Source: Porphyromonas circumdentaria (lineage in GTDB: Bacteria > Bacteroidota > Bacteroidia > Bacteroidales > Porphyromonadaceae). Taken from it: a stretch of DNA of 64,000 nucleotides. The first letter of the stretch is position 1, and every line of letters begins with the position of its first letter. Where the stretch lies: NCBI RefSeq assembly GCF_900167105.1, contig NZ_FUXE01000012.1, forward strand, positions 1-64,000, given 5' to 3'. The notes beneath the pieces were generated by a model that was not told the origin of the DNA, did no database searches, and saw nothing but the letters and a program-made list of their open reading frames with translations. The position numbers and the translations under genes are program-made. Below are positions 30,930-46,615 of this stretch, in pieces.

Positions 30930-31026
30930 TTGCCGTACCCTACCCTAAGTAAGGGCTGTAAAGAGGGGTAACGCGTAGGGCTCCTCTTGTCAATAAAAAT
31001 TGATTAGTGCAAAATAGGTGTGTCCT

Positions 31027-32211
31027 ATGAAACATAAGTGGATTAAGATAGTATCGTTCTCGCTCCTCCTTCTATTGATAGGAGAGTTTGCCTCGCCATC
31101 ACTACTTTTTGCTCAACGAAAGGGCAAGAATAAGTTTACGGTAGTTATCGACCCAGGACATGGGGGGAAAGATGCTGGAGCGGTAGCACACGGAGGTAGA
31201 GAGAAAGACATCAACCTTGCCGTGGGATTACGTGTGGGAGAGATGATCTCCAAGCGATTTCCTAATGTAAAGGTGCTTTATACCCGTACAACCGATGTTT
31301 TTATCGGTTTGCAGCAGCGTGCCAACTTTGCCAATAAGAACAAGGCCGATCTTTTTATGAGTATTCATACCAATTCGGCCAAGTCTTCCGCTTCGGGCGT
31401 AGAGACCTACGTACTCGGTTTGTGGCGTAACGAAGACAACTTACGTGTGGCGATGAAGGAGAATGAATCTATCCTTCTGGAGGAAAACTACGAGCGCACC
31501 TATAAGGGATTCGACCCCTCTTCGAGCGAGAGCTATATCATGTTTGAGCTTTTGCAGAATAAGCACCTCGACCAGAGTATAGAGATTGCCAAAGCGGTAC
31601 AGGACCAATTGGGGGCTACCTCACTCATCAATCGAGGCGTTCGTCAGGCTGGTTTTTTGGTTATCCGAGAGACAGCTATGCCGAGTATCCTTATCGAGTT
31701 GGGTTTTATCTCCAATAGAAACGAGGCGGCCTTTTTGCTTAGTCAGCGGGGGCAACAGACCCTTGCTAACGCTATTGTAGAGGGGTTTGGCAACTACTAT
31801 AAAGCCTACAACAAAAGTTTTGGGGTTACGACGGTCGAGAATACCTCCACTCCAGAGCCAGAGCCCGAGATAAGGGAGGAGGAATCTCTGCAGGAGCCTA
31901 CCGTTGAGACCGAGGTAGAGCTTGCTGAGCAACCCGAGAAAGCCCCCGTAGTAGAGGAGCCTGCTAAATCGAAGGGCGAGACTTATGCCATACAGATCAT
32001 GGCTTTGAAGAAGAAAGTGTCTACCAAAAATCGAGACTTTAAGGGCGAAAAGGTGCGTTGTGAGCGTAATGGTAGAAACTATTGCTACATGGTAGACATC
32101 TCGGGCAACCGTAAGATGGCAGAGAAACAGCTCAAGAAATACAAGAAGAAATTCCCTGGAGCTTATATTGTAATCTATAAGAACGGGGTACGACAGGGTA
32201 CTATTTACTGA
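31027..32211 (+). CDS. N-acetylmuramoyl-L-alanine amidase with C-terminal SPOR domain
   Basis: 394 aa from the ATG at 31027; an in-frame GTG nine bases earlier is less likely. A signal peptide (about 1-30) is followed by an Amidase_3 zinc domain: VVIDPGHGGKDAGA (first His), the Glu of GREKDINLAVG, MSIHTNSA (His) and IELGFISNRNEA (catalytic Glu). A Glu/Pro-rich linker (about 265-320) leads to a SPOR-like domain (about 322-394) that binds denuded septal glycan. It probably splits peptidoglycan at division. The next gene, mlaD-like, follows after 49 bp. Confidence 0.92.
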   Translation: MKHKWIKIVSFSLLLLLIGEFASPSLLFAQRKGKNKFTVVIDPGHGGKDAGAVAHGGREKDINLAVGLRVGEMISKRFPNVKVLYTRTTDVFIGLQQRANFANKNKADLFMSIHTNSAKSSASGVETYVLGLWRNEDNLRVAMKENESILLEENYERTYKGFDPSSSESYIMFELLQNKHLDQSIEIAKAVQDQLGATSLINRGVRQAGFLVIRETAMPSILIELGFISNRNEAAFLLSQRGQQTLANAIVEGFGNYYKAYNKSFGVTTVENTSTPEPEPEIREEESLQEPTVETEVELAEQPEKAPVVEEPAKSKGETYAIQIMALKKKVSTKNRDFKGEKVRCERNGRNYCYMVDISGNRKMAEKQLKKYKKKFPGAYIVIYKNGVRQGTIY

Positions 32212-32260
32212 TAGTAGCGGATAAAACAAGAGAATACACACCACAAAAACATACTGAACG

Positions 32261-33163
32261 ATGAAGAAAACAACTAAAATAACGCTGGTAGGATTTTGGG
32301 TACTACTGGCCTCCTTAATCCTTTACCTGGGCGTGAATTACTTAAAGGGCCTCTCTGTTTTCAGTAGAGAGAAGTACTACTATGCTCGTTTTAAAGATGT
32401 TTCGGGGATTGTTGTAGCCTCTCCCGTTCTTATCAACGGGTATAAAGTGGGTACGGTACAGGGGTTGGAGTTTGATATGGAGCATGATGCTACCACTTTG
32501 GTAAAAGTAAATATCGACAAGTCTATACGCCTTCCCAAGGGAACATCTGCCACAGCACGCCTTTCTCTCTTCGGGGGAGCTCAATTGGATTTGCAGTTGG
32601 GTTCTTCTACCGAGATATTGGAGCAGGGAGGATATTTAGAAACCGTCCCCCCCGACAATGACCCGATGTCTGTGGTAACGAATAATATATTGCCCGCTGT
32701 GGTGCAGATGTTGCCTAAGATAGACTCTACACTTTCTGCTATCAATGCGATTGCCAACGACCCTGCGATTCTTGCTACTCTTAAGGAGGCTCATGCTACT
32801 GTACAGCGTGCCAATACGGCGATGCAAGGTATAGAGGGTGTTGTTGCCAAGGTAGATGGTTATATGAAAGGAGATGTGGCGAATATACTCCGAGCAGCAG
32901 ACTCTTCTGCAGTACGTCTTGAGCGTTTTACTCGTCAGCTGGATGAAATCGAACTCAAAACATTGGTGCAAAACTTAGAGACCTCCAGCGAAGAGTTGCG
33001 TAAGATAACTCAGCAAATCAACTCCACTGATGGTACTATTGGCAAGTTGGTACACAACAATGAGCTCTATGACGAAGCCAATAGACTTTTACAAACGATA
33101 GAAACCTTGGTAGAGGATATTAAAGCTAATCCGAAGAAATATCTCAAAATAAGTGTCTTCTAA
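32261..33163 (+). CDS. MlaD-family (MCE domain) lipid-transport protein
   Basis: 300 aa. A single N-terminal helix (residues 7-26) anchors a periplasmic MCE domain at about 38-118 with the SPVLINGYKVGTV stretch, followed by a helical C-terminal region rich in Asn, Thr and Ala that could form a coiled coil. MCE proteins carry phospholipids between membranes with an MlaE/MlaF ABC transporter, which is not encoded in the window. The downstream lipoprotein gene starts 3 bp after the stop and is probably co-translated. Confidence 0.9.
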   Translation: MKKTTKITLVGFWVLLASLILYLGVNYLKGLSVFSREKYYYARFKDVSGIVVASPVLINGYKVGTVQGLEFDMEHDATTLVKVNIDKSIRLPKGTSATARLSLFGGAQLDLQLGSSTEILEQGGYLETVPPDNDPMSVVTNNILPAVVQMLPKIDSTLSAINAIANDPAILATLKEAHATVQRANTAMQGIEGVVAKVDGYMKGDVANILRAADSSAVRLERFTRQLDEIELKTLVQNLETSSEELRKITQQINSTDGTIGKLVHNNELYDEANRLLQTIETLVEDIKANPKKYLKISVF

Positions 33164-33165
33164 CG

Positions 33166-34023
33166 ATGAAAAGAGAGATAGCTTTTGGGGTGGGTGTTGC
33201 CCTCCTTATGACCTTAGGACTGGGAGGATGCTCCTCCGATAAGAAAGAACGTAAGCAAGCATTAGGGCAGTTGCAGAGTTATGTGGTGGAGGGGGCTTTT
33301 GAACAAGCAATACCTCTTGCCGACTCTATCGATAGTGTGTGGGCATCTGACCTTGCTTTGCGAGAGGAGGCACTTGCTTGGCGTCGTAAGGCTTTGTCGC
33401 AGAAGTACACCTTTCTCTTAGACTCCATAGAGCAGGCTCTCGAAGGGCTTCAGGTGCGTTTAGATAGCCTCGAAGAAAAGATGGTTTTTATACCCGAGAG
33501 CGAAACCCAAGAGGCTAAGTATTGTGCGCAGAATCATAGGCAGGTTCCAACGCAGATGGGTAACTATCTCTACGCTTCGGCACATCCAAAGGGCTTTTTG
33601 AGCCTTACACATTATTATATAGGTAGCAGACCTTTGAAATATGATGCTATCGGACTGACCTCTTCGCAAGAGATTGCCGTGCGCTCAAGAGTTTTCGACA
33701 CAGGAGATGACCATAACCACACCTTTACGGCTGGTGGGAGGCATCATGCTACATTACAGTTGCCCCCGAATGATAGTTATGCTTTGGGGCTTTATGTATA
33801 TATGTGCTATCAAGATAGTGTACCGCTAAGGGTGGAGCTACACCATGAGGGAAAAGTAGTTACTCGCTATACTCTGAGCCGTGCGGATCAGAAGCCCTTG
33901 GCGGAGACTTTCCTCTTTGCCCAATGGGTACAGCAGAGAGAAAGTCTCAAAGCACGCTATACACGTTATCAAAAGGCATTAGGACAATTAACTGAAAAAG
34001 CCCCCCTTGCGCCTCGAAGCTAA
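33166..34023 (+). CDS. Lipoprotein of unknown function
   Basis: 285 aa. A signal peptide ends in LGLGGCSS, a good lipobox with Cys22. Residues 30-110 are helical and charged; residues about 118-265 are beta-rich with a His-rich patch (DDHNHTFTAGGRHH). No family is recognised. The 2-bp gap after the MlaD-like gene suggests a common function, perhaps envelope lipid transport; this is inference. Confidence 0.75.
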   Translation: MKREIAFGVGVALLMTLGLGGCSSDKKERKQALGQLQSYVVEGAFEQAIPLADSIDSVWASDLALREEALAWRRKALSQKYTFLLDSIEQALEGLQVRLDSLEEKMVFIPESETQEAKYCAQNHRQVPTQMGNYLYASAHPKGFLSLTHYYIGSRPLKYDAIGLTSSQEIAVRSRVFDTGDDHNHTFTAGGRHHATLQLPPNDSYALGLYVYMCYQDSVPLRVELHHEGKVVTRYTLSRADQKPLAETFLFAQWVQQRESLKARYTRYQKALGQLTEKAPLAPRS

Positions 34024-34110
34024 ATCATTGCTACTGCTATGCCAATGTTTATGATTATATAATGAAATAAATATTCTAACTCGAAGCTAAATCATTGCTA
34101 CCGCTATGCC
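34013..34110 (+). repeat. 31-bp direct repeat across a gene boundary
   Basis: CTCGAAGCTAAATCATTGCT and the next 11 bases occur at 34013-34043 and 34080-34110 with one mismatch. The unit covers the lipoprotein stop codon and the ATG of the next gene; the first copy holds a decoy ATG that stops after seven codons. Confidence 0.75.
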
Positions 34111-34780
34111 CTATGCTTACTTTTGGACAGGACAGATTATCTACGATGTTGCTTATCTGTTACTCCTCTTAGGGTTGCTCTTTTTGGGATTTGCTTCCTA
34201 TCGCATTCCTCGTCTCTATCCACGTCTTTTCGAGGCGGCTGCGTTCTATAAAGAGAGTGTTTTCTTTGAAGAGATCAAAAGGTATATATCCCCTACTTTT
34301 TTTCTCATTTTGGGGCGTTTGCAGTTCTCCCTTTCTCTGTCGCTTATCGCCTATTTTTATTTAGATTCCATAGGTAGGTTCGTTGGTATAGCTCTTGAGC
34401 AAACGCTGTTGATACTCTCCCTACTTTTCGTTGGTATCTATCTCTTTTTTGTTGTGCATAGGTTGCTTTACCGTGCATTAGGGTATGTTTACCTCTCTCT
34501 CTCGGTTTACGATTTGTGGAGAGATGGGTATAATCTTTTGGAGTGGTTATGGTCTTTTCCGCTCTACTTGGCCATACTTATGATGACCCAGCCGATGGGA
34601 TTTCAGGCGGGATTATGGGTAGCGGGTATCACCTTTCTTCTTTGGAGACTTTTTGTCATACGACGTACCCTGAGTGTACTAAAAGAGACAAATATTACGT
34701 ATCTACAACTTTCTTTGTACCTTTGCACCCACGAAGTAGCACCCTTTGCCTTTTGGGTATGGATTGCTATACGGGGGTAG
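34106..34780 (+). CDS. DUF4271 membrane protein
   Basis: 224 aa, about six hydrophobic segments. It resembles the Bacteroidota DUF4271 family, which very often precedes the uroporphyrinogen-III synthase gene, as it does here. The function is unknown. The ATG at 34106 lies in the second copy of a 31-bp direct repeat. A TAccTTTGC box inside its 3' end (34718-34726) may drive the next gene. Confidence 0.75.
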   Translation: MPYAYFWTGQIIYDVAYLLLLLGLLFLGFASYRIPRLYPRLFEAAAFYKESVFFEEIKRYISPTFFLILGRLQFSLSLSLIAYFYLDSIGRFVGIALEQTLLILSLLFVGIYLFFVVHRLLYRALGYVYLSLSVYDLWRDGYNLLEWLWSFPLYLAILMMTQPMGFQAGLWVAGITFLLWRLFVIRRTLSVLKETNITYLQLSLYLCTHEVAPFAFWVWIAIRG

Positions 34781-34805
34781 TATTAATTTTGTATTAATAG
34801 AAAAT

Positions 34806-35564
34806 ATGACCGCACCGACCAAGAAGATACTTATATCGCAACCAGAGCCTACCTCTGGCCGATCTCCTTACTACTCTATTGCCGAAAAGTATGGATATTC
34901 TTTAGAATTTCGTCAACTCATCAAGGTGGTTACCGTAGAACCTGCAGAGTTTCGTCGCCAAAGAGTAGATATTCTTGCCCATACAGCTGTAATCCTTTCA
35001 TCCAAATCGGCTATTGATAATTTCTTCACACTCACGAAAGAGTTGCGCCTTACAATACCCGAATCCATGAAATATTTCTGTCCGAGTGAGTCGATTGCTC
35101 TCTATTTGCAGAAGTATATTGTGTATCGCAAGCGCAAAGTCTTCTTTGGAGAGAACGGTCAGCTTACGGACTTGCTGGCAACTATAGCTAAGCATCCTAA
35201 GGAAACGTACTTTCTGCCCGTTTCTGAAAACCCAGAGAATGCACTCTTCGATATGCTCAATGAGAAGAAAATCACATTTAATCACGCTATAATGTATAGA
35301 ACCGTAACGCGTGGATTGGATGAGGAACCAATGGCTTTTGACCATGATATTATTCTTTTTTTTAGTCCCTATGGGATTAAGGCCTTGAAGGAGCTCTGTC
35401 CCGACTTTGAGCAAGGAGATAAAGTGATAGGAGCTTTCAGCACTTCTGCCGCAGAGGCTGTGGAGCAAGCTGGCTTACGACTGGATTTTGCAGCACCAGT
35501 ACCAGGTGTACCCTCTATGCCTGCCGCACTTGACCTCTATCTCTCTCAGCATGCAGAGAAGTAG
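34806..35564 (+). CDS. hemD: Uroporphyrinogen-III synthase
   Basis: 252 aa. It closes and inverts ring D of hydroxymethylbilane in tetrapyrrole synthesis. The sequence is weakly conserved, as usual for the family, but the ILISQPEPTSGRSPYY start, the HTAVILSSKSAIDNFF stretch and the C-terminal FSPYGIKALKELCPDF with FSTSAAEAVEQAG fit. I chose the ATG at 34806; the frame is open upstream but reads into DUF4271. Its end overlaps rnpA by 14 bp. Confidence 0.85.
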   Translation: MTAPTKKILISQPEPTSGRSPYYSIAEKYGYSLEFRQLIKVVTVEPAEFRRQRVDILAHTAVILSSKSAIDNFFTLTKELRLTIPESMKYFCPSESIALYLQKYIVYRKRKVFFGENGQLTDLLATIAKHPKETYFLPVSENPENALFDMLNEKKITFNHAIMYRTVTRGLDEEPMAFDHDIILFFSPYGIKALKELCPDFEQGDKVIGAFSTSAAEAVEQAGLRLDFAAPVPGVPSMPAALDLYLSQHAEK

Positions 35565-35991
35565 GCTTCAGAAATCAGAACGAATATATTTACGAGATAC
35601 GCTCCGTAGGCTCTTTGCTTGCGGGGCTACTTTTGTGGCTTATCCATTTAGGGTGGTCTATATGATGGTAGAAGAGCCTATGAAAGAGGCTCCACTTGCC
35701 ATCTTGATTAGTGTGCCGAAAAAACGTTTTAAGCATGCAACAGATCGTAATCGGGTTAAGAGGTTAGTACGGGAGAGTTTCCGTCTGCAAAAAGCTCCCC
35801 TACGAGAAAAGTTGGAGGCTCGGCATACTACGCTCTGTTTTGCAGTTTTGATGATTTCTGATGAAATACCTTCTTATGCCTCGGTCTATAAGGCTATGGA
35901 GAAGATACTTCGGAGGCTTGAGCGTGAAGTGGCTAAGCAAGGCGAAGTAAGTAATGGAGGCGAAGAGCCTACCCTTTTGTCGGTTGAGTAA
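35551..35991 (+). CDS. rnpA: Ribonuclease P protein component
   Basis: 146 aa basic protein that assists the RNase P RNA in 5' processing of tRNA. The conserved RNR region is present as [18 protein letters not shown] near residues 65-82, with the upstream [10 protein letters not shown] strand. The frame is open from 35488, but the ATG at 35551 gives the usual N-terminus. It overlaps hemD and precedes yidD, the normal rnpA-yidD order. rpmH and dnaA are not present here. Confidence 0.93.
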
Positions 35992-36008
35992 GTCCTTTTC
36001 TTTCTATT

Positions 36009-36272
36009 ATGAATAAGCAACGCTCTTTGGGACAGAAAATATACTACCAGCTTCATCGTCTGCTTATACTTTTTCTTTCGCTCCCTATTCACTTTTATCG
36101 AGGGGCTATATCGCCACTCTTTCCTCCTTCGTGTCGTTTTACGCCTACCTGTTCGCAGTATGCTCTGGAAGCACTTCGCAAACATGGTGCTATCAAGGGG
36201 ACGAGGCTTGCCATTCGGCGCATCTTTCGTTGTCATCCATGGGGAGGGGGAGGCTATGACCCTGTACCCTAA
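36009..36272 (+). CDS. yidD: Membrane protein insertion efficiency factor YidD
   Basis: 87 aa. It has the conserved [20 protein letters not shown] segment with the paired cysteines and the ending [12 protein letters not shown] typical of YidD. It assists YidC in inserting membrane proteins. It follows rnpA by 17 bp, the usual arrangement. Confidence 0.95.
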
Positions 36273-36293
36273 GAGTTCTATCCCCCTACTAAG

Positions 36294-37040
36294 ATGACGC
36301 CTTACATTGATTTTCACACACATTCGGAGCCTTTGATTACGCCCGAAGTGGTGGCGATACGGAGCGTTGACCTTTCAACCGAAGGGAATTGGCTTGAGCG
36401 GGAAGAGGCTTTTGCATTTGCAAGAGGTAGGGCGAGTAGGGGGGTGAAGGAGCAATATCTCCCTGCAAAGACTCCTATTTCCTTAGGCTTACATCCATGG
36501 TATATAGAGAAGGCAACTTTATCTGCTCAACTTAAGCAATTACAACACTATGCCCAACTGCCACAGGTCGTAGCGATAGGCGAGTGCGGAGTAGATCGTT
36601 ACAGTAGAGTAGATATATCTCTGCAAAAGGAGAGCTTCATGGAGCAGTGCCGTTTGGCGTACGAGAATAGTCTTCCCTGTGTACTGCATGTGGTAAAAGC
36701 ATGGGAAGAACTTTTTGCTTGCATAAAGCAGTTGGAAAAGCAACGACCGACCTTTGTTGTGCATGGATTCAGAGGAAAGAACGATTTGGCGCAAAGTCTT
36801 ATTTCAAAAGGTTTTTACCTCTCTTTAGGAGTGCACTATTCAGTGTCGTCTTTACACACAGCTTGGCAAGCGGAGCGACTATTCCTCGAAACCGATGAGG
36901 CCGATTTTTCTATCTTTTCGCTCTATCAAAAAGTGGCTCTGGATCTGCAACTACCCATCGCGACGGTACGAGAAAATATTTTTCATCGTACGCTCAATCT
37001 GCTCCCCATTGCCCCTCTACTTTCTTTGGATACCTTGTAA
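36294..37040 (+). CDS. TatD-family metal-dependent hydrolase
   Basis: 248 aa TIM-barrel hydrolase, a predicted metal-dependent DNase. Visible are the N-terminal DFHTHSEP (two His ligands), LGLHPWY, the Glu of IGECGVDRYS, LHVVKAW, VVHGFRGK and LETDEADF (Asp ligand). This is the short Bacteroidota subfamily; substrate is not established. It ends the plus-strand run starting with ychF, and a weak hairpin follows at 37042-37081. Confidence 0.85.
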   Translation: MTPYIDFHTHSEPLITPEVVAIRSVDLSTEGNWLEREEAFAFARGRASRGVKEQYLPAKTPISLGLHPWYIEKATLSAQLKQLQHYAQLPQVVAIGECGVDRYSRVDISLQKESFMEQCRLAYENSLPCVLHVVKAWEELFACIKQLEKQRPTFVVHGFRGKNDLAQSLISKGFYLSLGVHYSVSSLHTAWQAERLFLETDEADFSIFSLYQKVALDLQLPIATVRENIFHRTLNLLPIAPLLSLDTL

Positions 37041-37140
37041 AAACGGGAAGGCAAAGATGCAAAAAGATCTCCCTTCCCGTTACCATTTAGATAGAAAAAC
37101 TTATTTCATAGAACCCCTATAGGGTTCTGCCCCATTCGGA

Positions 37141-38127
37141 TTACATATGATATTCGTCGGGGTCGTTTTCTTGATGATTAGGGATATTCGAAGCCTCGTT
37201 GTACATAGTTTTTACCTGCTCGGGTGTAAGGTTAAATTCCTTAGCGATGTCTGAAATGAAGTTGTTAAAGGAAGCCTCATCTTTAGGACGCTTCGTAACG
37301 ATGCGCACGGGTACTTTGAACGAACAGATTGTTAGTGCAGAGAAAGATTGTTCCCAAGCAAAGGCACTACGGAATTGGTTACCCATTTTCTTTTTGTTTG
37401 GGGTAGCAAAGCGTACGAGGTGATACACGAGGTCGAAGGCAACGTGTTCTTCTCGAACACCGATGAAGTTCTCTGCTTTTTTGGTATCAGGATTGTGGAA
37501 ATAGCCTTTGAACCCGATGTTCTTTTCCGAAAGTTCTACCTCTTCTTCATCTTCTTCATGTCTAAGTGATGCTACACTACCGCTGTGATGGTGGTGATGC
37601 CCTTCGTGGGGTTCGTACATAAGATGTTCAGGATTAGTATCGCGATATATAAAACCGCTCATAACCTGCTCTAAAGACTTGTTAATAGATGCACCCTGTA
37701 CAGTCTCTCCAGGGGTGTATTGGCGCATATTCTCTGCCGTGAGGAAGAATTGGCATACGTCTTCTACTCCATTCGTAGTATAGTAAGGGTTTACGCGCTT
37801 GTTGTCTTTGTCTAAAAAGGTTATTTCGGAAGACCAAACCATATGAGCCATTAGGCGAAGGGGTGTATTTCCCTTAAGTGCATAGGTCTTACCGTCGGAT
37901 TGCAGTTCGAGCGTAAGCTGTGCCTTATTCTTGAGAGGAAATGCGATATTGGTATAGGTCGGATTGCCATGGAAGTTGCTACCATGGAGGTGTCCGCCAC
38001 GTACCAAAATCTCAACTTTTTGAGGCATTATTCCCTCGGGTTTTGTCTGTACGGGTTCCTTTTTACAGGAAGAAAAAGCAAGAGCTACGGTGGTAGCTAA
38101 TGAAAGGATAAAGATACTTTTCTTCAT
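37141..38127 (-). CDS. Histidine-rich lipoprotein of a probable metal-uptake operon
   Basis: 328 aa. A signal peptide ends at a lipobox-like FSSC (Cys21). Histidines cluster in GGHLHGSNFHG (46-53) and in a run of five (177-181) flanked by further His, and residues 188-200 are Glu/Asp rich. The region around residues 100-135 (EITFLDKDNKRVNPYY, VCQFFLT) is matched in the neighbouring lipoprotein, so the two are paralogues. No named family is recognised. Next to a TonB-dependent receptor, it is a candidate surface or periplasmic metal-binding partner; zinc is a guess. Confidence 0.7.
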   Translation of the reverse strand: MKKSIFILSLATTVALAFSSCKKEPVQTKPEGIMPQKVEILVRGGHLHGSNFHGNPTYTNIAFPLKNKAQLTLELQSDGKTYALKGNTPLRLMAHMVWSSEITFLDKDNKRVNPYYTTNGVEDVCQFFLTAENMRQYTPGETVQGASINKSLEQVMSGFIYRDTNPEHLMYEPHEGHHHHHSGSVASLRHEEDEEEVELSEKNIGFKGYFHNPDTKKAENFIGVREEHVAFDLVYHLVRFATPNKKKMGNQFRSAFAWEQSFSALTICSFKVPVRIVTKRPKDEASFNNFISDIAKEFNLTPEQVKTMYNEASNIPNHQENDPDEYHM

Positions 38128-38159
38128 AATTGAGTATAATTTTGAGTGTAAATAATAGA

Positions 38160-38852
38160 TTACTGTTTTACAGTTATGGGTATTTGGAGGTCGATGTCCG
38201 TTACCCCGAGTAGATGCTTGGCAGGTTCGTCAAAAGGATAGTAGTTGCCCTCTTTGTTTTTCTTTGTGGCAGGGGGCACTACATGCACCAGTTGGGTGCG
38301 AAGGTAAAAGTCTGGATAGGTAACATCGTCTATTAAGCGAAGAGCTCCCTCAAATCCGATGGGCTGTTTCTCTCCGTCGGAGGGTTTGGGGTCCATATAC
38401 TTGTAGATGACTTGTGTTGCTATCGGTGTAGGGTAGGGCTTAGAAGTATCTTCGCGACGAGTAGAGAGAAAGAAGAATTGGTGCATAGAAGCCTGCTCGT
38501 CCGTCAGATACTGTGCATTGATCTTTACGCCTGCTTTGTTGTAGAAGTTAATATCTACTTTGTACCATTCCCCTTTGGCAAGCTCTACAGCTCCCGACTT
38601 AATAACCGAACCCTTCTTGGAGTCTTTCGTTTCCTTGTAACTAAGGGGTGTCTTGCCCGAGGCGTTAAAGCGGTCGGCATAGACTGCCGTAGTGTCTTGT
38701 ACCGTACCGGGAGTAAAGAGTATTTCTACACTCCAAGGCATTTCATGCTCTTTTTCTTCGACTTGGTTTTTTACTTCAGGTGCTCTGCATGAGAAGAGAC
38801 TCACGAGCAATACCGCTGCGAAAAGTATTTGTATAAAATGATAACGTTGCAT
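38160..38852 (-). CDS. Lipoprotein, paralogue of the His-rich neighbour
   Basis: 230 aa. A lipobox LVSLFSC (Cys22) follows the signal peptide. It shares with the downstream gene the pattern MPWSVEILF, YKVDINFYNKAGVKINAQY and MHQFFFLS, and lacks the His run. Function unknown. It lies between the TonB-dependent receptor (25 bp) and the His-rich lipoprotein (32 bp) and is probably co-transcribed with both. Confidence 0.7.
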   Translation of the reverse strand: MQRYHFIQILFAAVLLVSLFSCRAPEVKNQVEEKEHEMPWSVEILFTPGTVQDTTAVYADRFNASGKTPLSYKETKDSKKGSVIKSGAVELAKGEWYKVDINFYNKAGVKINAQYLTDEQASMHQFFFLSTRREDTSKPYPTPIATQVIYKYMDPKPSDGEKQPIGFEGALRLIDDVTYPDFYLRTQLVHVVPPATKKNKEGNYYPFDEPAKHLLGVTDIDLQIPITVKQ

Positions 38853-38877
38853 AGTCTATCTAAATGAATGGTGCGTA

Positions 38878-41238
38878 TTAAAGGGTATAACTTAGAGAGA
38901 GCTGTATGTCTCGCCCTTTTTCGTGAGCGTAGTAGCGAAACCGATTGGTGTACTCCTTATAGAGATGGTTGAAAATATTCTCGCCCTTTAGTCGTATCTC
39001 GAAAAGTCCACGCCCCCAATGCAAGGAGGTGCCTATCGAGAGGCCGAAAAGGTGATAGGCGGGGGGCGTTTGGGGTATGAAGTCTATTTCGGGATCAAAT
39101 CTCTTTTGTTGTGTTACGTAGAGATGCTCCAGCGAGAGGGATAGCTGTTTTATCTGTTTTATCGGCAGGGTAGGGCTCCACTCGATACGCTGAGAGTAGC
39201 GATCGGAGGGAATGTAGGGGAAAAATCCCTTTGTCTCTCGGTTGATAGCTCGTATCCATTGCCCCTCTAAGCGATAGCTCAAAGCCTCTAAAGGTTGCAG
39301 CAAGAGGCTTACATCGCCCCCGTAGAAAAGTGCGTTGGCCTGTCGGTAGCGGAATACAGGAAATACTCCTGCGAGTAGTTCCTTTACTTCTGGTCCTCCC
39401 GTAGCAGGGTCTATTTGGGGAGCATCGTAGATATAGTTTTTAATCCACTGGGTGAAAAAAGTGGTAGTAAGCGAGAGGAGGCGGGAGCTGTAGCTGAGCT
39501 CATTGTTCCACTTCCATGCAGCCTCGGGGGCAAGGTGTGCATCGCCTATCTCGTAAGAGGCAGCTCCGTGATGCAATCCTTTGCTGTATAGTTCGTTTAC
39601 ATCGGGAGCTCTCCATGCCAATCCCAAGTTGCTGCTGAAGGAGGTATTGTCGCCGATACGACGCATAGCCGAGAGCGAGAAAGAGGGGCTCTTGAAATGC
39701 GTCTCTCCACCGTAGAACATGCCTAAGTCGTCATACCCTTTGGCTTCGAGATACTTATAGTCATAACGGACACCTGCCTCCAATTCGTAGCTTTTCTGTA
39801 CATATTTGGCAATCCCATACCCTCCCCAAGAGAAAGCTCCGAAGTTGGGGATAAGGGGGATGGAGCCCGTATCGTTGCGATTGGCATTTTGTTGAAAGAT
39901 GAGCGAAGTGCCTGCTATAAAACGTAGAGGGACGTGTTTGTCCGACTCCCAGCTCAGGTGTCCCGAGTGGGTGGTAAGGAAAAGACCCATAGAGGGTGCG
40001 TAGCGAAAGCGTCCAGGACGGTTCTCATATTCGTCGCGTACATTGCTCTGTACGTCGTATTGCATACGCAGTACCCCTCCTATACCCATAGAGTAGAGCC
40101 CAGAGAGACGCCCTATTATGTGCAATACTTCCTGTTTGGGATTGTGTATAGCATAGCTTGCAGGGGCAACATTTACAGGTCTGCCCGCTTCAAAACGCGC
40201 CAAAAGATCGTCAAGAGTACCGATGTGTGCTCCGTAGAATACGCCCAAACGAGCATGGTACAGACTGGCAAAGGCGTCGGCTTCGAACCTTTTACGCTTT
40301 ATACCCATGGCGAGCGTTGCTCCCATCTCTCGTACGCCCGTGTTATTGAGTACATATGCTGCCGTACGATAGTCGCCTGCATAGAGCGATGAAGCTTGTA
40401 GTCTCCATTTGACCCCCTCTATGGTTTTGAAGGTTCCGTAGGTGTCGGCATTTACGCCCCAGCTGCGAGCGTTAGAAGCTCCTTTTAACTGCAATTTTCC
40501 ACCCCATTTATCCTCCTCGGGTAGTGTGGCGGTATTCATTAGTATGACGCCCCCAATCGCTCCTGCCCCGTAGCGAATAGATTCTGCCCCCTTGATAACC
40601 TCCATATCAGTTACCGAGGAGGCATCTACCTCGGGAGCATGGTCGGCTCCCCACTGCTGCCCCTCTTGGCGCACGCCGTTGTTGATGAGCAGTATTCTAC
40701 TGCTGTGCATACCTTGTATTACGGGCTTCATGATGGTAGCACCGCTGCTGATACTACTCATGCCTGGTATTTGCTGTAAAATCTGTGCGAGGTTTTTGCC
40801 TACATTTTCTTTGAGTTGTGCTTGGCTCATTCGTACGGAGACGGTGGTGCGCTCACGTTTTCGCTTGTCGGTAGTAACGACGACCTCTTCTAACTCTATA
40901 TTTTTCAGATAAAGCGTCAGAGGGCGAGAGGTGGCTTCTTCGTAGGCAAGTATTCTCTGCTCTTCTTGATACCCCACCGCGTGTACGATAAGATGCGCTT
41001 TGCGCCCAGAGGGCCATGCAATGCGCGCTATACCCTGCTGATTGGTTATTGAGTGGTTTTCCTCCAGTCGTACCACGACCCCAGGTATCGGTTCTTGGCT
41101 CTCTGCCTCGAGGATGCGTACCTCTAACTCTTGTCCTCCTCTGTTTTGTGCGGAGAGCATACCGAGTGGCAAGAGGAACAGCAGGAGTAAAAGTAGAGAA
41201 CAACCCTGTTTGGAAGAGGTATAGCGTATATTTCTCAT
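38878..41238 (-). CDS. TonB-dependent outer-membrane receptor (probable metal transport)
   Basis: 786 aa. A signal peptide ending at LSAQN precedes a carboxypeptidase-like regulatory domain (about 36-115), then a plug (about 125-235) and a 22-strand-type barrel ending in LSLSYTL with a C-terminal hydrophobic residue. The plug has IQGMHSSRILLINNGVRQ followed by EGQQWGADHAPEVD, a stretch seen in Bacteroidota receptors related to ZnuD and other metal receptors. It lacks the long SusC/RagA architecture and no SusD partner is present. The two neighbouring lipoproteins strengthen a metal role; the ligand is inferred. Confidence 0.88.
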   Translation of the reverse strand: MRNIRYTSSKQGCSLLLLLLFLLPLGMLSAQNRGGQELEVRILEAESQEPIPGVVVRLEENHSITNQQGIARIAWPSGRKAHLIVHAVGYQEEQRILAYEEATSRPLTLYLKNIELEEVVVTTDKRKRERTTVSVRMSQAQLKENVGKNLAQILQQIPGMSSISSGATIMKPVIQGMHSSRILLINNGVRQEGQQWGADHAPEVDASSVTDMEVIKGAESIRYGAGAIGGVILMNTATLPEEDKWGGKLQLKGASNARSWGVNADTYGTFKTIEGVKWRLQASSLYAGDYRTAAYVLNNTGVREMGATLAMGIKRKRFEADAFASLYHARLGVFYGAHIGTLDDLLARFEAGRPVNVAPASYAIHNPKQEVLHIIGRLSGLYSMGIGGVLRMQYDVQSNVRDEYENRPGRFRYAPSMGLFLTTHSGHLSWESDKHVPLRFIAGTSLIFQQNANRNDTGSIPLIPNFGAFSWGGYGIAKYVQKSYELEAGVRYDYKYLEAKGYDDLGMFYGGETHFKSPSFSLSAMRRIGDNTSFSSNLGLAWRAPDVNELYSKGLHHGAASYEIGDAHLAPEAAWKWNNELSYSSRLLSLTTTFFTQWIKNYIYDAPQIDPATGGPEVKELLAGVFPVFRYRQANALFYGGDVSLLLQPLEALSYRLEGQWIRAINRETKGFFPYIPSDRYSQRIEWSPTLPIKQIKQLSLSLEHLYVTQQKRFDPEIDFIPQTPPAYHLFGLSIGTSLHWGRGLFEIRLKGENIFNHLYKEYTNRFRYYAHEKGRDIQLSLSYTL

Positions 41239-41373
41239 TGTAAGGTTTAGGAGGTGGGAGGAGGCGATAGACTGTATAATTTGTTTTGAACAGAAACTTA
41301 TCTCAATATCTCTATATTATTTCGGTTTATTTTCTGGTCGATTTTTAATATATCATTTCTATTTGAACTAAAA

Positions 41374-41405
41374 CAAAGATAGGGACTTATTGGACTATTT
41401 CCAAA
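41374..41405 (-). promoter_or_regulatory. Promoter of the TonB receptor operon
   Basis: On the minus strand a -33 TTTG (41405-41402) and a -7 TAtcTTTG (41381-41374) are 20 bp apart, a near-perfect Bacteroidota promoter. Transcription would start near 41367, leaving a leader of about 130 nt before the receptor ATG. No metal-regulator operator is recognised. Confidence 0.65.
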
Positions 41406-41828
41406 TGATAACACTAAGTGATATTTTAAAAATCTCTCTATATCCCTTTGCTGTAAAGGGATTTTCCTCCCTTAAAGAAGAGCGTTTACAGACCTTTTTT
41501 CTCTTTGTAACGGGTGTTTTTCGATAAACGAAATTCGATATTTATCCTTTTTGCACGGGTTGATTAGGGTAGGAAAGAGGAGTTTCTTTCGAGAGGGCTT
41601 GAACGAGAATTGTAATGACTGTGCCCCTATCGCGTAGTGGATAGCTCGCTACATCGTTAGGAATATGTGAGGTTGCCTCCCCCTCTCTCTGTAAATCCTC
41701 TTTGTTTTACGTATTAAGTTGAAAAGAGCGGGGCATCGTGAGAGGTTTACCGTAGAGGTCTGAAAGGCTGCTCTTTAGTGCTGTGATACAGTTGCTTATA
41801 GGTTTTGGACTAAAAGCCTTTATGAGAG

Positions 41829-41918
41829 TTTTAGTTTGCATAGGAGGAAACTAAAGTTAGCACCTGAGATAATGCAAGTTTGCACATATATAAACTTGAG
41901 TTTCCTCCTGTGCAAACT
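41829..41918. repeat. Palindromic repeat array, 22-bp period (AAACTnnAGTTT class)
   Basis: AGTT(T) occurs at 41833, 41855, 41877 and 41899, and AAACT at 41848, 41892 and 41914, all in register at 22 bp. It is the longest array of this class in the window, with about five units, some reading GCATAGGAGG and one reading the complementary CCTCCTGTGC. Confidence 0.65.
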
Positions 41919-42427
41919 TTGGAAGTCTTTATACCATAATATCTCACCTACTCTGCTTTTTTTTCAAAGGTCTCCTTTTGGGTGCTATTTTGATAAAGAA
42001 CTTTTGAGAGTTGTCTGTACAGGAAGAGACCCTGGTCTCTTCTTCAATATATGTTATTTATTTTGCAATACTCTTTCTTTTAAATAAAGTATTATATTTG
42101 CACGGCGGGGGTTGGTATGTTTTGTAACAATTAAGCTTTCTATTTTTGAGAAAAGTTGAGTTGTAACGATATTTGTAGATGCCCTCCTAACGAGACCCAT
42201 AAACATATGGAGAGAGAAGGTGCGGTATATTGCTTAGAGTGAAGCTGTCTCTTTGCCATAAGGAGTAACCCTTTCTGTGGATAGAGTAACTTTTACGATA
42301 GGTTAAAATTACCTCATTGCATTCTGCGACTTTTTCTAATAAAAAAGTTGAGAGTTCTTAGTTCAAGCGAGAGCAAAGATGGAATAATATATAGTACTAC
42401 CGATACAATACATTTTATTTTAAGGAA

Positions 42428-44317
42428 ATGAAAATAATAACCAACAAGTTCTATGGTCTTTTCCTCATTCTTGCAGTGGCACTTTTTACGGGGTGTAAGC
42501 CTCCTAAAGAAGTGGTTATAGAGGAGCAAGTAGCACTGCAGCTTACAGTAGACAAACGTGTGATAAGAGCCGACGGGCTCGATACACTACAGATGAGTGT
42601 AACCAACAATGGTATTTCTGTACAAGAGGAGTGTACATTCCACGTAGTGGCACCTGAGACAATTCTAAAAGATGGCCGTTTTTTTACCTCTAAGGTGGGA
42701 GAATATGAGCTTTACGCTCTTTATAAAGGCAAATACAAGTCTGAAGTAATACGTGTAGAGGCTGTAGCTCTCTCTTTGATACTGAACGCATCTTCCGAGA
42801 AAATCGTAGCAGATGGCGAGCAAGAAGTTACACTCAACGTCTCTTGGGAGGGCAAGGATATTACTTCTGAGTGTGCACTCTATTTGTTGCAAGGTGAGGA
42901 GAAAACGCTACTCGATAGCCCTCGATTCAAAACAGAGAAAGCAGGGAAGTATCAGTTTCAAGCGACCTTTAGAGGATATACCTCCAACATTTTCGAGGTA
43001 GAAGCTCTGCCTCTCACTCTTATACTTAAGGGGAGTAAGAATGAGATAAAGGCCGATGGCATCGAGGAAGTAAAGTTTAACGTAACTACAGATGGTAAAG
43101 ATATCTCCTCTTTGTGTCAAATCTTTTTGTTAAAAGGAGAGCAGGAAACATTGGTAGAGAATGGCGTTTTCAAAACCAATCAACATGGCAAGTATAAGTT
43201 CCAAGCTATTTATAAGAGTTACCGCTCCAATGTATTCGAGGTCAATGTTACCGAAATTATCCCTGAAAAACCTATCGAACTCACGGCAACTACAAGAGAA
43301 ATTCCTGCCGATGGTAAGACCGAAGCGCATTTCTCTGTAACGCAGGGCGGGGAAGATGTAACCTCAAAGTGCAAGATTTATTGGTGGGGTGGCGCGGTAC
43401 AAGAACCCGTCTTGCTCTTGGGCACCTCGTTTAAGACGAAACGTGCAGGCGAGTACAATTTTAAGGCCACGATGGGCGAGCTTGTCTCTGCCGAGATCGT
43501 AGTAAGAGCCATAGAGAGTGATCTCCCCTCTGAGGCGGGTGTGCTTTTTGTGCATGGAGTAACCAAAGATAAGGGGTGGTATGATGTCAATAAAAAGAAA
43601 GATGGTAGAGGTCCCGATGGCCTTCTCTGTTGGGCAGCCGCTTGTGCCAACGGATTACAATGGTGGCAAGAAAACTATGCCGCAGCTGGGCTTTCTCTTC
43701 CCAACGGGGTGCCTTCAGGAGTAGGTGAGAAATGGGAATTGAAGATTTTTGAAGAGTTTATGGCCAACTGGACTAATAGAGGAGCTCACCCCGATATGGG
43801 TTTTGCATGGTATTTTTCAGGAGAAAATAGAGCCAGTAATTGTAGTGTTTGCTCTCAACCCAAACCCAACTCTGGTGCCTATCTAAAATCTATTTACGAC
43901 CAACTGGATAATACGTGGAAAGATGGCTATACTCGTTCTGTACGAGGCTACTCGACTTGGGGTGATAACGGCGACAAGAATGAAGACCCTCTTAAGATAT
44001 TTTCTCGACACATAATAAGAGCTCTAAAAGAAGGGATTGTGGTGTTAGATATTAATCCTGGCTTTTCTACTGCTCATGCGATTACCTTATGGGGGTGTGA
44101 ATATGGGGCGGATGGACTTATTCGATACCTGTATATTACAGATTCGGATGATTTGATTCATACACCCTTAGTACCTCGTAGGCCAGTGCTCCACAAATTT
44201 GAAGTCGCAAAAGCCTCTAACGGGAAAAGAATTGTAGGAATAAAAGGAACCACTTATAAACCTTTTGTTGAAATACAAAACTACTATACTTTGCGAGCTT
44301 TTCCTATCACCAAATGA
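42428..44317 (+). CDS. Surface lipoprotein with Ig-like repeats and IdeS/Mac-type (C66) cysteine peptidase
   Basis: 629 aa. A signal peptide ends at FTGCKPP (lipobox, Cys23). Four Ig-like repeats of about 82 aa follow, each opening with a RADG/VADG/KADG/PADG motif (residues about 36-365). Residues about 375-629 match the IdeS/Mac immunoglobulin-degrading family: GWYDVNKKKDG, catalytic Cys401 in LLCWAAACANGLQWW, His550 in AHAITLWG and Asp572/Asp574 in YITDSDD. The Cys-His-Asp-Asp spacing from His on (22 and 24) equals that of streptococcal IdeS. Known members cleave IgG in the hinge. The Ig specificity here is inferred. It is 28 bp upstream of the next gene and probably shares its operon. Confidence 0.85.
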   Translation: MKIITNKFYGLFLILAVALFTGCKPPKEVVIEEQVALQLTVDKRVIRADGLDTLQMSVTNNGISVQEECTFHVVAPETILKDGRFFTSKVGEYELYALYKGKYKSEVIRVEAVALSLILNASSEKIVADGEQEVTLNVSWEGKDITSECALYLLQGEEKTLLDSPRFKTEKAGKYQFQATFRGYTSNIFEVEALPLTLILKGSKNEIKADGIEEVKFNVTTDGKDISSLCQIFLLKGEQETLVENGVFKTNQHGKYKFQAIYKSYRSNVFEVNVTEIIPEKPIELTATTREIPADGKTEAHFSVTQGGEDVTSKCKIYWWGGAVQEPVLLLGTSFKTKRAGEYNFKATMGELVSAEIVVRAIESDLPSEAGVLFVHGVTKDKGWYDVNKKKDGRGPDGLLCWAAACANGLQWWQENYAAAGLSLPNGVPSGVGEKWELKIFEEFMANWTNRGAHPDMGFAWYFSGENRASNCSVCSQPKPNSGAYLKSIYDQLDNTWKDGYTRSVRGYSTWGDNGDKNEDPLKIFSRHIIRALKEGIVVLDINPGFSTAHAITLWGCEYGADGLIRYLYITDSDDLIHTPLVPRRPVLHKFEVAKASNGKRIVGIKGTTYKPFVEIQNYYTLRAFPITK

Positions 44318-44345
44318 GTAAGAAAAAAGAATTAAATAAGTGACT

Positions 44346-46529
44346 ATGAAACGATTATTATCTACTTTAGTTGTTTTTGTGGGTCTTTTTGTCTTTTCCA
44401 TGACAAGTGCAAGTGCCCAACATGCATCGATTCCTCCCTTTAGTGGGGGTAATGGAACCGAAGCTACTCCCTATCTATTGTCTACTGCAGACGATATTAT
44501 TGCACTCTCTAAACTTGTAGAAGAGAGTCAAAACGATTGTACTGGGCTTTTCTTTAAGATGACGCAGGACATCGACATGACAGGGAAAACCATGAAACCT
44601 ATTGGTAACAACCATAATTCTAGTTATACCCCTCATTACTTCTGTGGTACTTTCGATGGAGGAGACTATACCATCAACAATTTGGTTATCGAAGCAAAGA
44701 CAAAAAGAGCGGTAGGCTTATTCGGTATGGTCAAGAATGCAACCATCAAAAATCTCACAATAGAGAATAGTACCTTGAAAGGTCAGGGAATTACAGGTGG
44801 TTTATGTGCTGTTATGGCCAACTCTGTTATTTCTAACTGTCATATAGGCAAAAAAGTTTATGTGGAAAGTATTTCAGACCCCAATACTGGAGGAGTGATT
44901 GGTGCAATTCTTGCGGGAGATAAGAATGTTATTGAAGATTGTACTCATGCAGGGCATGTAAGAGGTGCACACTCTACGACAGGAGGAATACTTGGATTGG
45001 ACAATGCTAAGGGAAGTGTTGTTAGAAGATGTTTTAACATAGGTGTTGTCGAAGATTGGATGGGTATTGTTGGTGGTATCGTTGGAGAGACTAAATATGG
45101 GCATTTGTCCATAGAAGATTGTGGTAATACAGGGACGGTTCATGCGGGTAAAAACGGAGCTTCTTACCATGCCGCAGGTATGTTGGCAAATATAGATGGT
45201 ACCGCTGTAGCAAAGAGACCTGTTATAAAAAATTGCTACAATGCGGGAGAAGTGGCTTCTAATGTAGATGATGCTCCCCCTCACCCTATGACTTGTGCAA
45301 TGCAATCTACTACTACCGAAAACTGTTACTATGATCCTGTAAGCTCTAAGACAGCTGTGGACGATGTTACCAGCGTATCTGCCGAGGAAATGGCTAAGCC
45401 TGCTTTTGTAGATCAACTCAATCAAAATCGCCCCAACGGACCATGGAGGATTATTGAAAACGTAAATAAAGGGCTGCCTGTACCTACGAAAATGAAACCC
45501 TCTTCGGAAGAGCCAACTCCCATATCTTCTGAGTTTAAGCCTCTTTTCGATAGAGTTACAATACCAGTATCTCAAGACTATGCGATGTTTATAAAGGAGT
45601 ACTCTGCCGAGGCATACAATCACATAAAGGCAAATCGTATTGTCATAAAATTGGAGTCTCTTACTCCAGATGTTATTAAATCTTCGGGCGATAAGTATCG
45701 TGCCATTAAACCAGGTGAGGGAACTGTAAAGGTGCGTATTGCGGGTGCTGTGAAAGGTTCTTTGGATCAATTCGATGAGAATAATGTATTCGGTGAAACA
45801 ACTTTCACCGTAGAGGCTGTTCCTTTTGAAGAGTACCGAACCACTTTCCCTGCCGTACCTACCATCTGGAGGCATGGAGCAGAAGAGGTAAAAGAGTTTG
45901 CTCAAAATACTTGTAAGTTGACTCTCTTTACTGAGCAGTACAACAAGCTTATCAGAGTGCCCGAAAGCATGAAGCCTCATAACGATATTTTCTTGACAGG
46001 ACTTTCAGACTTCCCTCTCATTAATACTCGTTATACAGAAGATACAGGGGCTTTCATTCAAGCAACAGTATTCACCTCTACTTTCCTCTTTATCGATAAC
46101 ACAGCCCCCCTTCGAAAAATACTCGAAAAGGCAGGTTATGAATATAGAGGATATAGTAGTGTTACAGGTACAGAAACCTATCGCCACGAAGAGTCTAAAA
46201 CATCTGTATTCTTACAGTTTGTAGCACTTCAAGGCGTACGTTACGGTGGTATCTCATTCATGTACGATGAAAAAGGAGAATATGTACCCGATTCCAACGA
46301 GGCTATTGAGGCTTTCAAGGGCGAAATCTTGTTGGCAGACCATGGTAGTTCGTTCGATGTAACCGTTCCCGAGGGATGTTTAGGCGAAAATGTACAGATT
46401 TTTGACTTGGCGGGTAAGCTCATCGCTTCTCAGGTAGCTAATGATACAACCTTACATTTCGACGCTGTTCAAGAGAAAACATTTATCGTACGCGTTAAGG
46501 GATGTCTCGCTTTGAAGGTTATTCTTTAA
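44346..46529 (+). CDS. T9SS-exported GLUG-repeat beta-helix surface protein
   Basis: 727 aa from the ATG at 44346 (an in-frame GTG lies 6 bases earlier). A signal peptide ends at ASAQH. Residues about 30-370 consist of GLUG-like turns (GTFDGGDYTINNLVIE, AVGLFGMVKNATIKNLTIEN, TGGILG, VGGIVGE), a right-handed beta-helix as in adhesins and polysaccharide-binding proteins. The region 385-660 is unrecognised. The C-terminus (VQIFDLAGKLIAS ... FIVRVKGCLALKVIL) is a T9SS sorting domain, so the protein should be exported by the type IX system and attached to the surface. Its role with the upstream peptidase is unknown. Confidence 0.8.
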   Translation: MKRLLSTLVVFVGLFVFSMTSASAQHASIPPFSGGNGTEATPYLLSTADDIIALSKLVEESQNDCTGLFFKMTQDIDMTGKTMKPIGNNHNSSYTPHYFCGTFDGGDYTINNLVIEAKTKRAVGLFGMVKNATIKNLTIENSTLKGQGITGGLCAVMANSVISNCHIGKKVYVESISDPNTGGVIGAILAGDKNVIEDCTHAGHVRGAHSTTGGILGLDNAKGSVVRRCFNIGVVEDWMGIVGGIVGETKYGHLSIEDCGNTGTVHAGKNGASYHAAGMLANIDGTAVAKRPVIKNCYNAGEVASNVDDAPPHPMTCAMQSTTTENCYYDPVSSKTAVDDVTSVSAEEMAKPAFVDQLNQNRPNGPWRIIENVNKGLPVPTKMKPSSEEPTPISSEFKPLFDRVTIPVSQDYAMFIKEYSAEAYNHIKANRIVIKLESLTPDVIKSSGDKYRAIKPGEGTVKVRIAGAVKGSLDQFDENNVFGETTFTVEAVPFEEYRTTFPAVPTIWRHGAEEVKEFAQNTCKLTLFTEQYNKLIRVPESMKPHNDIFLTGLSDFPLINTRYTEDTGAFIQATVFTSTFLFIDNTAPLRKILEKAGYEYRGYSSVTGTETYRHEESKTSVFLQFVALQGVRYGGISFMYDEKGEYVPDSNEAIEAFKGEILLADHGSSFDVTVPEGCLGENVQIFDLAGKLIASQVANDTTLHFDAVQEKTFIVRVKGCLALKVIL

Positions 46530-46578
46530 CTTGAAATGACCCAATAAATACTTCTCCTCATAAGAGAAGTGTAGTAGT

Positions 46579-46615
46579 AAGGCTCGCAGGTTTTTCCTGT
46601 GGGCCTTATCTTTTT
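46579..46615 (+). terminator. Intrinsic terminator after the GLUG protein gene
   Basis: AAGGCTCGCAGG and CCTGTGGGCCTT form a 12-bp stem (two G-T pairs) around a T5 loop, followed by a T-rich tract from 46611. Confidence 0.7.

Follow-up and report, generated by a model that had tools for sequence, protein, structure and literature searches.

Gene layout and neighborhood

The window, i.e., the whole stretch of 64,000 nucleotides of Porphyromonas circumdentaria DNA analyzed here, belongs to a genome of 2.03 Mb in 35 contigs and carries an open reading frame (42428..44317, ATG start; forward strand, as all features below unless stated otherwise) that encodes a putative lipoprotein of 629 aa with four Ig-like repeats and a Mac-1 peptidase domain. 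The sequence and a regular-expression scan point to a lipoprotein signal peptide (residues 1-22) with the lipobox FTGC, ending at Cys23, the residue expected to be lipidated (together 42428..42496); the lipobox Phe at position -3 was also found by regular expression in relatives of the protein (FVAC in L052, FTGC in L084, and FTAC in L062). Repeat alignment delimits the Ig-like repeats to residues 34-113 (42527..42766), 114-194 (42767..43009), 195-275 (43010..43252), and 281-364 (43268..43519), the first, third, and fourth being 32, 49, and 38% identical to the second. The Pfam family Big_1 matches residues 200-259, within repeat 3, with 24.8 bits, i.e., below its cut-off of 34.9, and a comparison of the repeats with PDB gave a single match, of no use at E 0.45. 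With a GC content of 0.435, against 0.443 for the window, the peptidase gene bears no compositional trace of recent transfer.

Separate from the peptidase gene, a second gene (44346..46529) follows, whose product has a signal-peptide-like start; its ATG, chosen over a GTG at 44340, lies 28 bases past the peptidase stop codon. Behind it we located a terminator-like hairpin of 14 pairs followed by TTTTT (46577..46609), a pattern match of which the region holds 7, against 4.8 expected from shuffled sequences. Given the 28-base gap and the position of the hairpin after the downstream gene, the two genes are probably co-transcribed. The downstream product scored 18.4 bits against the M26 N-terminal region, below the cut-off of 27.7, and 13 of the 26 genomes of the genus, its own included, encode relatives of it. 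The two halves of this protein match a pair of separate, neighboring genes at another position in its own genome (G000:C13, L144), and likewise in three other genomes of the genus (G006, G021, and G025).

Six neighbor proteins were compared with loci L027-L137, of which L108-L137 comprise approximately 1.5 kb on each side of the match, and no match was obtained other than that of the downstream product in L061. This locus, from a Muribaculaceae MAG, contains two weak matches (28 and 27%), approximately 2-6 kb from its Mac gene. To the right of the gene pair, trpS and rlmH are found together in all ten genus relatives compared. Similarity to these relatives ends just upstream of trpS, from 46682 leftwards. 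The nine window genes upstream of trpS (31018-46529), the Mac gene among them, had no match in the ten relatives at E 1e-8; the region from L152, which extends only some 1 kb upstream from trpS, is too short for its left side to be judged. No Mac match was found in G006, the closest relative by trpS (93%). Hence, the neighborhood gives no hint of the substrate. A TonB-dependent receptor is encoded on the reverse strand at 38878-41238, its nearest family being the heme/hemoglobin receptors (TIGR01785, 129 bits, under the cut-off of 316.85).

Family assignment and catalytic residues

A preliminary description of this DNA had recognized a Mac/IdeS (C66-type) domain in the C-terminal part of the protein. 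Our searches support the assignment of the protein to the Mac-1 family (PF09028), which is equated with MEROPS C66 in PMC10318531, and place the putative cysteine peptidase domain at residues 368-624 (43529..44299) by Pfam, a family HMM match, and PDB profile matches. Pfam Mac-1 matched the reading frame with 42.7 bits (E 4.7e-11; cut-off 20.3). When the window protein alone was compared with PDB by phmmer, IdeS/Mac-1 of Streptococcus pyogenes (2au1) was the best match (E 3.5e-8), followed by 9hb2/9hb1, with T-Mac C0362 (9mdo) matching weakly (E 0.097). Profiles that include the window domain reached IdeS at E 2.4e-27 (nine sequences, 2au1) and E 2e-18 (clade 2, described below). The peptidases matched in these profile searches were IdeS, IdeC, and T-Mac alone; non-peptidases also appeared with the clade-2 profile, at E 0.036 and worse. 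We also looked for a better match to an unrelated cysteine peptidase family, and found no other peptidase family in the Pfam scan of the reading frame up to E 1, nothing relevant in the NCBIfam scan, and none in the PDB searches.

The motifs LLCWAA, HAITLWG, and ITDSDD of the window protein correspond to LLCGAA, HVINLWG, and VTDSDS of IdeS, and the His-to-Asp distance is 22 in both proteins. The placement of Cys401, His550, Asp572, and Asp574 in IdeS-like local motifs with the same His-Asp spacing, as given in the preliminary description, is confirmed, and Lys389 can be added to it. By alignment, the catalytic set of the window protein is complete: Lys389 (43592..43594) is the counterpart of IdeS Lys84, Cys401 (43628..43630) of the nucleophile Cys94, His550 (44075..44077) of His262, and Asp572-Ser-Asp574 (44141..44149) of Asp284 and Asp286. 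According to the account of IdeC in PMC12418751, Asp284 completes the triad and Lys84 forms the oxyanion hole, being held by Asp286 and Tyr255. The equivalent of IdeS Tyr255, found by counting seven positions back from His550 in a loop whose register is unsure, is position 543, which is Asn and not Tyr.

Conservation was assessed in 111 reading frames, yielding 112 aligned segments with four genes counted twice: the Cys401 column holds Cys in all 108 covering segments and the His550 column His in all 109, while among the 109 segments covering each acid the Asp572 column holds Asp (103), Glu (5), or Ser (1), and the Asp574 column Asp (70), Asn (34), Ala (3), Ser (1), or Pro (1). The acid pair of the window protein is the combination seen in IdeS. 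In one well-supported sub-branch (L035, L038, L114, and L128), the oxyanion Lys is replaced by Gln and the second acid by Ala or Ser, with Cys and His kept; catalysis in these proteins may differ from the usual one.

Relatives, phylogeny, and domain architecture

PF09028 was detected in 6 of 26 genomes of the genus, 7 of 38 of the family, 10 of 393 sampled from the order, and 3 of 395 sampled from the phylum, where the groups overlap and the genome of the window is part of every count, and in 27 of 245 sampled genomes from the family of a Treponema. No relative was returned when named genome contigs were scanned with the window protein as the single query. The same contigs scanned with a four-sequence alignment gave 113 matching stretches, 64 of which encode a relative, in 63 loci; the patterns used in the contig scan ([ED][SKD]GWYDV[ND] and [YW]ITDSDD[LYM]) bias it to the window's own motif and make it uninformative on the frequency of clade 1. 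By named organism (NCBI rank), 44 of the 63 loci belong to Bacteroidota, 17 to Verrucomicrobiota, and one each to Spirochaetota and Myxococcota; a gut site is named in 47 of the 63 titles, the animals named being ruminants. One of the loci (L103) lies in a MAG whose title gives Deltaproteobacteria and names no host. Two loci are from Porphyromonas, i.e., L089 (Porphyromonas sp. COT-239 OH1446) and L045 (uncultured Porphyromonas), the latter encoding the closest relative of the window protein, with 52% identity in the domain. A protein of the same layout from Alistipes (L066) is 35% identical over residues 2-602, and clade-1 sequences (L027-L029 and kin) aligned with the window domain show 20-26% identity. 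Among the matches listed from the open-licence literature, we recognized no Mac/IdeS enzyme of Porphyromonas or Alistipes. Thirteen of the 63 loci (e.g., L052, L054, L056, L088, and L103) contain two or three Mac-matching open stretches, broken and separate genes being pooled in this count, which suggests local duplication. In L074 (an Opitutales MAG) and L091 (a Treponema MAG), a stop lies inside the matching frame, indicating broken genes or assembly errors.

A tree of 99 rows, built after 8 rows had been removed as short or truncated and 4 as duplicates, splits the family into two clades at 100/99. Clade 1 (37 rows) comprises Treponema-family and Bacteroidales proteins together with three from Porphyromonas (L027-L029), and its second acid is Asn, Ala, or Ser. 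It includes L122, which we take as the T-Mac representative and which matches the published numbers for TDE0362 (length 647, cysteines, His561, Glu583, and Asn585). Clade 2 (62 rows), mainly Bacteroidota and Verrucomicrobiota, contains the window protein, its sister L045, the other contig-scan loci that were long enough, and L039, L130, and L134; L130 and L134 come from the Treponema-family search, and the second acid is Asp in all but L134. In this tree, the window protein shares a separate branch of the Mac family with numerous other proteins, and hhalign joins the Mac domains of the two clades with a probability of 99.9% (E 9.8e-33). We found no characterized clade-2 enzyme among the matches listed from the open-licence literature. 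Within the genus Porphyromonas, three genomes carry a clade-1 Mac protein (L027, L028, and L029, which have lipobox-like signals too) and three a clade-2 protein, that of the window included.

The position of IdeS was addressed in a tree from which 8 odd or long rows were omitted and to which an IdeS fragment was added. IdeS fell in clade 1 at 100/99, on a long end branch (2.35), and its highest identity in the tree set was 35%, to L029 from Porphyromonas (clade 1); its placement with clade 2 was left unrejected by the AU test (p 0.264). The clade-2 profile scored IdeS (2au1, 70.2 bits) above T-Mac (9mdo, 46.7 bits); with the clade-1 profile, T-Mac reached 119.8 and 2au1 109.7 bits, both above the clade-2 scores, the two profiles differing in make-up. 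Given the long end branch of IdeS, the outcome of the AU test, and the split profile scores, the TDSD motif alone is not proof of nearest kinship to IdeS.

Streptococcal IdeS-type enzymes are secreted and are not known to have Ig repeats or a lipid anchor, and the preliminary description had presented the stalked lipoprotein architecture as a departure from them. The lipobox, the four Ig-like repeats, and the Mac domain are indeed seen in the window protein, but the arrangement is not new: Treponema denticola TDE0362 (dentipain/T-Mac) is described as combining a lipoprotein signal with Ig-like domains and a C-terminal Mac domain (PMC11833123), and a similar build is seen in many relatives from Bacteroidota. 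TDE0362 had earlier been named dentipain, an IdeS homologue (PMC3747143), and homologues of it are mentioned in the Cytophaga-Fusobacterium-Bacteroides group (PMC11833123). We surveyed the N-termini of 62 clade-2-type proteins that are probably complete (58 from the contig scan, three from the whole-genome search, and the window protein; five fragments were dropped). At least 33 of them have a lipobox and at least 28 both a lipobox and an extension of at least 150 residues ahead of the domain, these being lower bounds since the regular expression misses some lipoboxes; an extension of that length is found in 36. In 16 of the 17 Verrucomicrobiota members, just 21-52 residues precede the domain, and the sequence of the 17th (L074) is fragmentary. 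A lipoprotein-Ig-Mac layout is thus a family theme, already published for TDE0362.

Clade-2 lipoproteins from Alistipes and further Bacteroidales of the gut (e.g., L066) and from Porphyromonas (L045) share the catalytic set, the lipobox, and an N-terminal extension with the window protein, whereas the length of the extension varies, with 158 residues before the domain in L045 and 367 in the window protein. Dentipain/T-Mac is of similar build and length (647 aa against 629) but, with L122 as its representative, belongs to the other clade and has Glu/Asn where the window protein has Asp/Asp. Moreover, its Ig-like part has no detectable relation to the window repeats (hhalign probability of 0.2% between small alignments of 8 and 5 sequences); hence, binding to a neutrophil receptor, as published for this part of T-Mac, is not transferable to the window protein.

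Putative surface exposure and candidate substrates

That the protein is held on the cell surface by a stalk, as had been proposed, agrees with the lipobox and the repeats and is less clear from the residues that follow the lipidation site. The export signals of Bacteroidetes surface lipoproteins are reported to be acidic residues near the lipidated Cys, namely K-(D/E)2, Q-A-(D/E)2, SDDDD, and SDDFE, and none is defined for Porphyromonas in the portion of that article considered here (PMC5080379). The mature N-terminus CKPPKEV has a single acidic residue between +2 and +6 and matches none of the signals described in that portion. Relatives fit them better (CGKKEEV in L045, CSDKEEL in L047, CESKEEP in L066, and CEGEEYV in L084), and the closest of these, L045, carries the minimal K-(D/E)2 signal. 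Surface exposure of the window protein is plausible on these grounds.

We postulate, with a probability of roughly 0.7, that the gene encodes an active, outer-membrane-tethered cysteine peptidase that acts on an extracellular protein of the host. The protein would be exported by Sec and lipidated at Cys23 to become an outer-membrane lipoprotein, in which the four Ig-like repeats would serve as the stalk of a C-terminal, papain-like Mac/IdeS peptidase. Cys401 would attack the peptide bond; His550 and Asp572 would complete the triad, and the oxyanion hole would be formed by Lys389, kept in place by Asp574. The narrow site would favor small P1 and P1' residues within an accessible segment of a host protein in its folded state, as described for IdeS/IdeC. 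The substrate would most likely be an extracellular immune protein of the host, an immunoglobulin or else a component of complement. This reading is consistent with the Pfam and PDB matches, the invariant Cys and His columns, the full-length alignment with L066, the presence of four repeats between the lipobox and the domain, and the targets reported for characterized homologues, which are IgG, IgM, or complement: IdeC cuts IgG (PMC12418751), IdeSsuis cuts IgM (PMC6177247), and T-Mac cuts C3, C3b, C4, and factor H, leaving human IgG and IgA uncut (PMC11833123). Against it stand the lack of a match of the mature N-terminus to the export signals, the identity of only 20-26% to the aligned clade-1 sequences, and the gut titles of 47 of the 63 relatives, the gut being a site where immune evasion is not the sole possible role. 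Moreover, production of T-Mac inside yeast or HEK293T cells is toxic to them (PMC11833123), and hence not all targets of T-Mac need be immune proteins.

An immunoglobulin substrate had been derived from family membership in the preliminary description, and this part of it is not established: the same motifs are no proof, as TDE0362 spares human IgG and IgA and cuts complement, and the tree places the window protein in the other clade. By analogy with the characterized enzymes, antibody is one candidate, and complement appears about as plausible. A tethered immunoglobulin protease proper, cutting the hinge of IgG, IgA, or IgM like IdeS, IdeC, and IdeSsuis, is a possibility that we regard as doubtful. 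The window protein shares with IdeS (S. pyogenes) and IdeC (S. canis) the Mac-1 domain, the Lys/Cys/His/Asp/Asp set, and the His-Asp spacing, and the DSD acid pair and local motifs are exactly as in IdeS; the single-sequence search and the clade-2 profile both rank IdeS above T-Mac, and the AU test is compatible with IdeS in the window's clade. Counting back seven residues from the His, however, leads to no Tyr, unlike in IdeS and IdeC, in a loop whose register is unsure. The IdeS tree favors the other clade (100/99), 2au1 scores higher with the clade-1 profile than with that of the window's clade (with the stated difference in make-up), and a homologue of the same layout spares human IgG and IgA (PMC11833123).

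A complement protease like T-Mac/dentipain, which would cut C3, C3b, or C4 near the cell, we consider somewhat unlikely. The order of lipoprotein signal, Ig-like part, and Mac domain is that of T-Mac, for which cleavage of complement proteins is reported (PMC11833123), and membership in the Mac family points the same way; on the other side are the position of the T-Mac-like L122 in the other clade, its Glu/Asn in place of Asp/Asp, and the 0.2% hhalign probability, obtained with small alignments, between the N-terminal part of its group and the window repeats.

A peptidase for nutrition or competition, which would trim dietary, mucus, or bacterial proteins instead of immune ones, is an unlikely reading, although the animal gut sites in the titles of 47 of the 63 named relatives, the two or three Mac-matching stretches in 13 of the 63 loci, and the Deltaproteobacteria MAG title without a host (L103) would fit it; the characterized members considered here act on host immune proteins (PMC11833123, PMC12418751, and PMC6177247). 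That the protein is an inactive enzyme retained for binding is highly improbable, as five of five catalytic-site residues are kept.

Returning to the tethered peptidase acting on host proteins, we tentatively extend it, with low confidence, to clade 2 as a large second IdeS/Mac branch in Bacteroidota and Verrucomicrobiota of the animal gut and mouth, in which commensals would cut mucosal host defence proteins (e.g., secretory antibodies) at the cell from a lipid-anchored Ig stalk, the substrates being of another class than those of IdeS and T-Mac. IdeS is used as a drug and as a laboratory tool, and IdeS-family enzymes for other antibody classes or species would therefore be useful. Moreover, the two clades raise testable questions, i.e., whether antibody cleavage is a streptococcal speciality and what the gut-commensal branch targets. 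A paper of 2013 lists dentipain as an IgG-specific protease (PMC3747143), which shows how easily a family name carries a substrate along. As a further observation on names, PDB calls the molecule of 9hb1/9hb2 an 'IgM protease', and PMC12418751 ties both entries to IdeC, the IgG protease of S. canis.
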